A stretch of 14,472 nucleotides of DNA, from contig JAHFHC010000025.1 in assembly GCA_023247085.1 (NCBI GenBank), positions 1 to 14,472 of the forward strand, written 5' to 3'. Positions 5,210 through 6,318 of the stretch are shown one piece after another. Origin of the DNA: Microcaldota archaeon. GTDB lineage: Archaea; Micrarchaeota; Micrarchaeia; Norongarragalinales; UBA8480. Each line of letters opens with the position of its first letter. Positions within the stretch are counted from its first letter, which is position 1. Made by a program: the position numbers and the translations under genes. Below the pieces are notes generated by a model. That model had not been told where the DNA came from. It ran no database searches and was given only the letters and a program-made list of their open reading frames with translations.

Positions 5210-5414
5210 GGGCTCATAGTCGAGTGGTTAAGACGCCTCCCTCACACGGAGGAAACCCCCGGTTCGATACCCATCTTTTTTCTTTTAAAAAAAGAAAAAA
5301 GCTAGGTGCTCCAAAAAAGAAAAACGCAAAAAACAGCGTTTCTTTTTGGGGTAAAGCCTAGACCTTTTTCTTTACAAAAGAAAAAGGGATCGGCCGAGAA
5401 TCCGGGTGGGCCCA
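5210..5414 (+). tRNA. tRNA-Val (anticodon CAC) with T-loop intron
   Basis: Exon 1 is 5210-5268 and exon 2 is 5401-5414, giving a 73-nt tRNA without encoded CCA. Acceptor GGGCTCA (5210-5216) pairs with TGGGCCC (5407-5413) with one T-G pair; discriminator A5414. The D arm is GTC/GAC (5219-5221, 5232-5234) with loop GAGTGGTTAA. The anticodon stem is CCTCC/GGAGG (5236-5240, 5248-5252) with loop CTCACAC, so CAC at 5243-5245 reads Val GUG. A 5-nt variable loop follows. The T stem is CCCGG (5258-5262) with CCGGG (5402-5406). The T loop becomes TTCGATT only after removing 5269-5400, placing the intron at position 59/60 instead of the usual 37/38. Without splicing the 3' half is missing, so the intron reading is strongly required by base pairing. 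Confidence 0.9.
5269..5400 (+). other. 132-nt structured intron in the tRNA-Val T-loop
   Basis: A relaxed bulge-helix-bulge frames it. The T stem forms the outer helix. Exon TTCG (5263-5266) pairs with intron CGAG (5395-5398) as a 4-bp central helix. Three-nt bulges ATA (5267-5269) and AAT (5399-5401) lie on opposite strands, each cut after its second base. The inner helix is CC(C)ATC with GAT(C)GG (5270-5275, 5388-5393), with one C-C mismatch and C5394 unpaired. Cutting a base or two earlier (TTCGA joined to AT) also restores a 7-nt T loop, so the junction could shift slightly. The intron holds hairpins at 5275-5301 (perfect 12 bp), 5311-5349 (inside a CTAGG/CCTAG stem, 5302-5306 with 5357-5361) and 5363-5387 (perfect 11 bp). 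No ORF is credible inside. Confidence 0.8.
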
Positions 5415-5454: not shown

Positions 5455-6318
5455 ATGGCTTTGCCAGAAAACGTTGCTAAATTTTTCGATAGACACGTGA
5501 AACGTCACGGCTACTTATCTACAGAAATGAAAGCGCACTTGCACCGCTGATTCGTTGCAAAACAAATCACTGAAAAAGAACTAAGCGAACTAGGCAACCG
5601 CATTAAAGAGCATGTTGCAGACCGCAAAGGAAAATCAGACTACGACGATGCAGTTACCGCGCTAAATAATTTACAGCGAGATGGGCTTAGTCTAGAACCA
5701 CACGCAGCATTGAACTTATTATTAAAAAGAATTCCAAAAGCACAAGCGCCACTCGCAAAAGTCATTAGCAAGGCAATGGCACACGTCAGACACACGACCC
5801 CAACTACAACCAGACCATGGCACGCAATCGAAAAAACTGATCATGGAATAGCGATTGTTAGAGCAGCAAAAGGCGATGTGAAGCTATTTAGACCAACTAA
5901 CTTCACATATAGCGATTATATAGAAAGAATGTTAAACAAAATGAAAATAGAAGGCTGGAAAAATGCAATGGGGCACGATCGAATTACCCAGTTTTTCCCA
6001 AATAGAACGGAATTATTCCACGAACATTTCCGCCCACATATAGTCTATAGCTATAGGTATAGCGCGGGTACCAAAAAAACACCGGAAATAGTTATTGAAC
6101 CACTAATCAACATACCTGGAGAAGAGCGAGCAAAAGCAGTGGAACAACTTAGGCAAATTGGAAGCATAAAAATTGGAGAGCTTGTTGGCCACAAGGTGCA
6201 CGTATTCGAACAACATAATCAACCTGAAGCAGAGAAACTAGCACGCAAAATGTCACGCTTCTTCAGACACGACGTACAAATAGTACAACACTATAACGAA
6301 CCACCTCAACGTGCTTAA
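5455..6318 (+). pseudogene. Unknown protein gene interrupted by in-frame TGA at codon 32
   Basis: From ATG 5455 the frame reads MALPENVAKFFDRH through HLHR, then TGA (5548-5550), then continues in the same frame as FVAKQITEKELSELGNRI to a TAA at 6316-6318: 287 codons, one of them TGA. No ATG, GTG or TTG follows the TGA until TTG 5710, which sits mid-sequence (HAALNLLLKR) and lacks a promoter or Shine-Dalgarno match. The protein is basic and His-rich, mostly helical at first, with a beta-type middle (RPHIVYSYRYSAG, TPEIVIEPLINIPGE) and an Arg/His-rich end. I recognise no family. Either a single base change made a stop (recent pseudogene or sequencing error), or the stop is read through, or a shorter protein starts at 5710. 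No frameshift is needed. Confidence 0.6.

Follow-up and report, generated by a model that had tools for sequence, protein, structure and literature searches.

The window analysed here (the whole stretch of 14,472 nucleotides, contig C29 of a draft archaeal genome of 892,562 bp in 36 contigs that is 92% complete) very probably contains a tRNA-Val(CAC) gene that is functional and has a long bulge-helix-bulge (BHB) intron in its T-loop, at position 59/60. The intron would belong to a family dispersed among the tRNA genes of this lineage, and would be spliced out by an epsilon2-type endonuclease and the ligase RtcB.

The split gene and its probable splicing machinery

The gene lies on the forward strand. 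Exon 1 (5210-5268) consists of the 5' strand of the acceptor stem, the D arm, the anticodon arm with CAC, the variable loop, the 5' strand of the T-stem and T-loop nucleotides 54-59. Exon 2 (5401-5414) supplies T-loop nucleotide 60, the 3' strands of the T-stem and of the acceptor stem (to 5413) and the discriminator A73 at 5414. Removal of the 132-nt intron (5269-5400) gives the predicted tRNA GGGCTCATAGTCGAGTGGTTAAGACGCCTCCCTCACACGGAGGAAACCCCCGGTTCGATTCCGGGTGGGCCC(A), with the exon junction GGTTCGATTCCGGG, in which GGTTCGAT stands on the 5' side of the splice point and TCCGGG on the 3' side. The original prediction, made from the letters of the window, had claimed that the acceptor and T stems pair across a 132-nt gap, and it was found that the two exons do form 12/12 pairs across it. 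In the spliced form the acceptor stem is paired at 7/7 positions (one G-T), the T-stem at 5/5 and the anticodon stem at 5/5, with U33 and the anticodon CAC in place. A complete cloverleaf is obtained only when 5269-5400 is removed. Two scans returned 59 or 80 BHB-like pairings in the region, and the only one that yields a cloverleaf is the pairing first reported. A cloverleaf across a T-loop gap occurs once in the real window and in none of 100 dinucleotide shuffles of the whole window.

The gene is missed by ARAGORN and by an Rfam scan of the window, and a genome-wide Rfam tRNA search detects no more of it than a 5' portion, 5217-5271 (21.1 bits). The fold of the whole region is stronger than that of shuffled sequences (z -6.0), mostly due to hairpins inside the intron. 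No group I catalytic intron was found in the window by Rfam at E up to 1, the sole match being weak and unrelated. As a separate observation, a frame of 287 codons (5455-6318) lies shortly downstream of the gene and is open except for an in-frame TGA (5548-5550). The frame has no clear Pfam match, and the TGA may be a sequencing error, the mark of a pseudogene or a recoded UGA.

The junctions have the form that had been described. T-loop nucleotides 54-57 (TTCG, 5263-5266) pair with CGAG (5395-5398) near the 3' end of the intron, and this 4-bp central helix is flanked by the 3-nt bulges ATA (5267-5269) and AAT (5399-5401), which thus lie at the two junctions as in archaeal BHB introns. In BHB splicing the cut falls after the second nucleotide of the bulge, and both cuts are placed there. 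The inner helix (CCCATC, 5270-5275, with GATCGG, 5388-5393) contains a C-C mismatch and is followed by an extra C at 5394. A strict motif has a full inner helix beside the 5' bulge; here the pairing at that place is 2/4, and the intron has only a relaxed form of the BHB motif. Inner helices are imperfect in other introns of the same family too, so such an imperfection is usual in this genome.

The original prediction had further proposed an endonuclease that accepts imperfect motifs, and the subunit type found in the genome agrees well with this. The only endonuclease locus found (G000:C26; G000 is the genome of the window) is split by an assembly gap of 10 N, and both halves have as best PDB match 4fz2, the epsilon2 enzyme of Candidatus Micrarchaeum acidiphilum ARMAN-2 (8.5e-43 and 3.7e-82). 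They align to 4fz2 residues 12-180 and 198-387, as is to be expected of three fused units of about 390 residues, and in relatives of the family the gene is a single frame of 378-409 residues (409 aa in G002). The catalytic residues Y236, H251 and K282 are conserved, as are Y160 and K161 of the ARMAN-specific loop (numbering after PMC6379350 and PMC12397907). Passages of these two papers describe the epsilon2 endonuclease as an enzyme of broad specificity that cuts relaxed BHB motifs. The enzyme encoded here, judged by this likeness, would be tolerant in the same way. The genome also encodes RtcB (2e-172).

It could be possible, then, to picture the following sequence of events. RNA polymerase would transcribe the pre-tRNA, the TTCG of the T-loop would pair with CGAG at the 3' end of the intron and place each splice site in a 3-nt bulge, the epsilon2-type endonuclease, tolerant of the imperfect inner helix, would cut both bulges, and RtcB would ligate the exons so that the T-loop reads TTCGATT. 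The 3' end of the intron matches the near-universal T-loop sequence TTC(G/A) and would work in almost any tRNA. Because the match between exon and intron lies in the T-loop, one intron can serve many tRNAs.

A dispersed intron family

Interruption is the usual state of tRNA genes in this genome. About 43 tRNA genes were recognised in targeted stretches of the genome, a list that is not exhaustive; 7 are intact, about 36 are interrupted, and only 11 score above the Rfam cut-off. The only Trp gene and the only initiator Met gene found are both interrupted. Most of the interrupted genes give a full cloverleaf after removal of 1-3 introns (in the D arm, at 37/38 or at 59/60); roughly ten interrupted genes, among which Leu-CAG, Leu-TAG, Gly-GCC, Pro-GGG, Ser-CGA, Pro-TGG, Arg-TCT and both Met genes, were read by eye or only partly solved. 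With a solver bound to the strict BHB, over half of the interrupted genes were left unsolved or poorly solved, and one based on fixed tRNA anatomy handled most. T-loop introns at 59/60 are present in at least 21 tRNA genes, commonly as single units of 58-66 nt. Leu-TAG and Leu-CAG (L088 and L094; G000:C28 and C36) apparently have a mini-exon of about 6 nt (TTCAAA) between two introns of the T arm, and Gly-GCC (L018) and Pro-GGG (L089) resemble them in this. The gene at G000:C21 (L082) looks like a Phe tRNA, with an ambiguous anticodon.

The tRNA-Val(CAC) intron has a longer, three-hairpin form, which is found in the Arg-GCG and Thr-TGT introns as well. Hairpin 1 (CTTTTTTCTTTT/AAAAGAAAAAAG, 5275-5301) is the U-rich hairpin module as a sense unit, the middle arm (CTAGGTGCTCC-AAAAAAGAAAAACG / CGTTTCTTTTTGGGG-TAAAGCCTAG, 5303-5362) belongs to the architecture common to the three introns, and hairpin 3 (CCTTTTTCTTT/AAAGAAAAAGG, 5363-5387) is an inverted unit, so that the hairpin-plus-A-rich module occurs twice, once sense and once inverted. 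The region of hairpin 3 shares 86% identity over 65 nt with a stretch adjoining a tRNA 3'-end copy in the genus mate G001. The genome has 45 copies of the module TTTCTTT-N-AAAGAAA and 2 of the reversed control. Of 44 distinct copies assigned by reading, tRNA introns hold about 32 and the 16S rRNA gene 1; another 6 adjoin tRNA genes or partial copies of such genes, and 5 are at other places. One copy, at L079:1501-1517 (G000:C16), was seen in an intergenic stretch with no tRNA nearby.

The introns are alike across isotypes beyond chance, as in the transposed intron families of the Thermoproteales type. The mean identity of 14 short T-loop introns from different tRNAs is 69%, against 49% (sd 1) for shuffles, and 62/85 cross-isotype pairs reach at least 65%; the highest are Gly-TCC/Ala-GGC (91%) and Leu-TAA with the L082 gene (89%). 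A covariance model built from the 14 has as its best match in the window the tRNA-Val(CAC) intron (30.4 bits), which was outside the training set. By its sequence, this intron is a member of a family that has multiplied and become dispersed among the tRNA genes of the lineage.

The central helix covaries with the exon. Among 39 T-loop introns, exon base 57 and its intron partner are G-C in 12, G-T in 2, A-T in 16 and A-C in 3 (Fisher p 9e-5), and own-genome introns alone give p 0.008. The full 4-bp helix is present in 28/39, against a permuted mean of 21.7 and a maximum of 26 in 1000 permutations, in a scan that chose the set without regard to the central helix; part of the relatives' loci came from a model that contains this helix, which favours paired cases and inflates the figure. 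When the 14 sequences are aligned, 100% of the T-stem cells and 96% of those of the central helix are paired; a shift of the partner by one column brings overall pairing down from 95% to at most 71%. This covariation is the best sequence evidence for a selection on T-loop introns to be spliced.

The same model also matches the 16S rRNA gene (G000:C28:1546-1625, L087, minus strand) at E 2.7e-6. The insert of about 63 nt has up to 76% identity to tRNA introns, the best of 100 shuffles reaching 63%. A 63-nt candidate BHB is present at the site, and apart from the insert the gene has its full length (model 1-1478 over 1555 nt). It appears that a related intron has entered the 16S rRNA gene.

Probable gain, possible movement and alternative readings

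A second intact tRNA-Val(CAC) gene would have spoken for a tRNA broken by an insertion. None was found, either with the DNA of the gene itself or by the genome-wide Rfam tRNA search, in a genome of which about 8% is missing; the other exon-like matches are intact Val(GAC) and Val(TAC) genes. Uninterrupted tRNA-Val(CAC) orthologues are present in G003 and G004, which represent two other genera of the family, and exon 1 is 87% identical over 59 nt to the intact gene of G004. Since these orthologues lack the intron, the lineage leading to this genome probably acquired it. The named closest relative, Candidatus Micrarchaeota isolate nzgw34, whose aIF2-gamma is 97% identical to that of the present genome, falls outside this comparison as its contig ends before the corresponding locus. 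The genus mates G001 and G002 have an uninterrupted tRNA-Ala(GGC) gene, which in this genome likewise has a T-loop intron, of 61 nt.

Partial copies of tRNA genes were observed at several places. The upstream region and 5' part of tRNA-Tyr stand in tandem (L086:869-951 and 990-1072, G000:C27; 83 nt, 94% identity) with a hairpin between them, and a shorter 5' fragment lies similarly upstream of tRNA-Thr(TGT) (L017). Copies of tRNA 3' ends occur beside intron-like sequence at a Glu-like tRNA (L038:1451-1467 and 1565-1581, G001:C32) and at the tRNA-Val(CAC) of G009 (L126:348-367 and 428-447, G009:C16). By analogy, partial copies beside tRNA genes would point to recombination. No recombinase gene lies between the copies.

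These introns could still be spreading in this class of Micrarchaeota as mobile U-rich-hairpin BHB elements, though we put this forward tentatively and with some doubt. They would enter the shared T-loop sequence by way of their complementary 3' end and would have entered the 16S gene also. They may move when endonuclease/RtcB splicing runs in reverse and recombination follows; alternatively, the movement may take place at the DNA level and produce partial tRNA duplications as a by-product. Matches to the T-loop intron model number 27, 10 and 11 in the genus and are patchy in the class (23 in G009, 24 in G039, 15 in G020), with none or few in many other genomes of the class. Several distant matches were inspected and are T-loop introns of genuine tRNA genes. 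Across 20 genomes (this one and its relatives) a higher hairpin count goes with fewer Rfam-visible tRNAs (Spearman -0.77). In G009, which is of the same order (L126-L129), tRNA genes have long multiple inserts, and matches to the Rfam tRNA model number only 6, the best at E 1.4e-7.

That the gene is dead, broken by insertion of a hairpin repeat, is highly improbable. It is true that the module also sits at a few sites outside tRNA genes (for example G000:C16:13826), and that this genome also has an intact tRNA-Val(UAC); this tRNA could read GUG, and the tRNA-Val(CAC) gene might be dispensable for that reason. Against this, every exon stem is still paired, the anticodon is preserved together with U33 and A73, a BHB lies exactly at the ends of the insert, and the junction pairing covaries with the exon. 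Moreover, about 36/43 recognised tRNA genes are interrupted alike, the only Trp and initiator Met genes found being among them, so the cell must be able to remove such inserts. Still harder to believe is a misjoining of repeats inside a tRNA gene during assembly or binning: the genome is a draft of 36 contigs with an N gap in its endonuclease gene, but both exons come from one tRNA, their junctions form a BHB, and independent genomes, among them G001, G002 and G009, contain closely similar T-loop introns.

A different question is whether the 132 nt leave as one intron. The sense and inverted modules, and the frequency of single-unit introns in this genome, would suit an inverted unit lodged inside another and removed stepwise. 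We consider this unlikely, as no internal BHB alone yields a cloverleaf and the Arg-GCG and Thr-TGT introns have retained the three-hairpin architecture, as would be the case for one unit. A functional gene with a single T-loop intron is the reading that we prefer.

Comparison with known systems

The intron phenomenon itself is already known, from intron transposition in Thermoproteales and from the intron-rich tRNAs of some Asgard archaea. For this lineage's intron family, its U-rich hairpin module and the 16S copy, no description was found in the open-access literature. The near-identical introns and intron-free orthologues found here are numerous enough for a study of archaeal intron gain. 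There is a practical side as well. Most tRNAs of such genomes escape a standard tRNA model (here only 11 of about 43 exceed the Rfam cut-off), and those left unseen could be mistaken for absent tRNAs or for low completeness.

The transposition of tRNA introns in Thermoproteales was the subject of a 2010 study, as cited in passages of PMC4090602 and PMC4033280. The present case differs in being a Micrarchaeota lineage with an epsilon2-type endonuclease, and in having introns built of a U-rich hairpin module, many of them at 59/60, with a related insert in 16S rRNA. In Caldiarchaeum, tRNA-Thr has an extra intron and a duplicated 5' tRNA fragment upstream, in a 1.8-kb element with a putative recombinase (PMC3293823). 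The 5' fragments upstream of tRNA-Tyr and tRNA-Thr are similar, whereas the copies here are separated by no more than about 40-110 nt, a stretch that has hairpins and lacks a gene. According to sections of PMC11291895, introns are present in 92-95% of the tRNA genes of the Asgard archaea Atabeyarchaeia and Freyarchaeia, many of them non-canonical and multiple. Most tRNA genes bear introns here too; the shared intron sequence family of this genome, in contrast, has no counterpart mentioned in those sections. Another parallel is ARMAN-1/2, of the same phylum and with the same type of endonuclease (best match 4fz2), whose tRNAs have multiple, non-canonical introns according to portions of PMC4033280, PMC6379350 and PMC12397907. 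An amplified family of sequence-related introns, which those portions do not describe for ARMAN-1/2, sets the present genome apart. It adds a large expansion of tRNA introns in a DPANN lineage with an epsilon2 enzyme, outside the Thermoproteales and the Asgard archaea.
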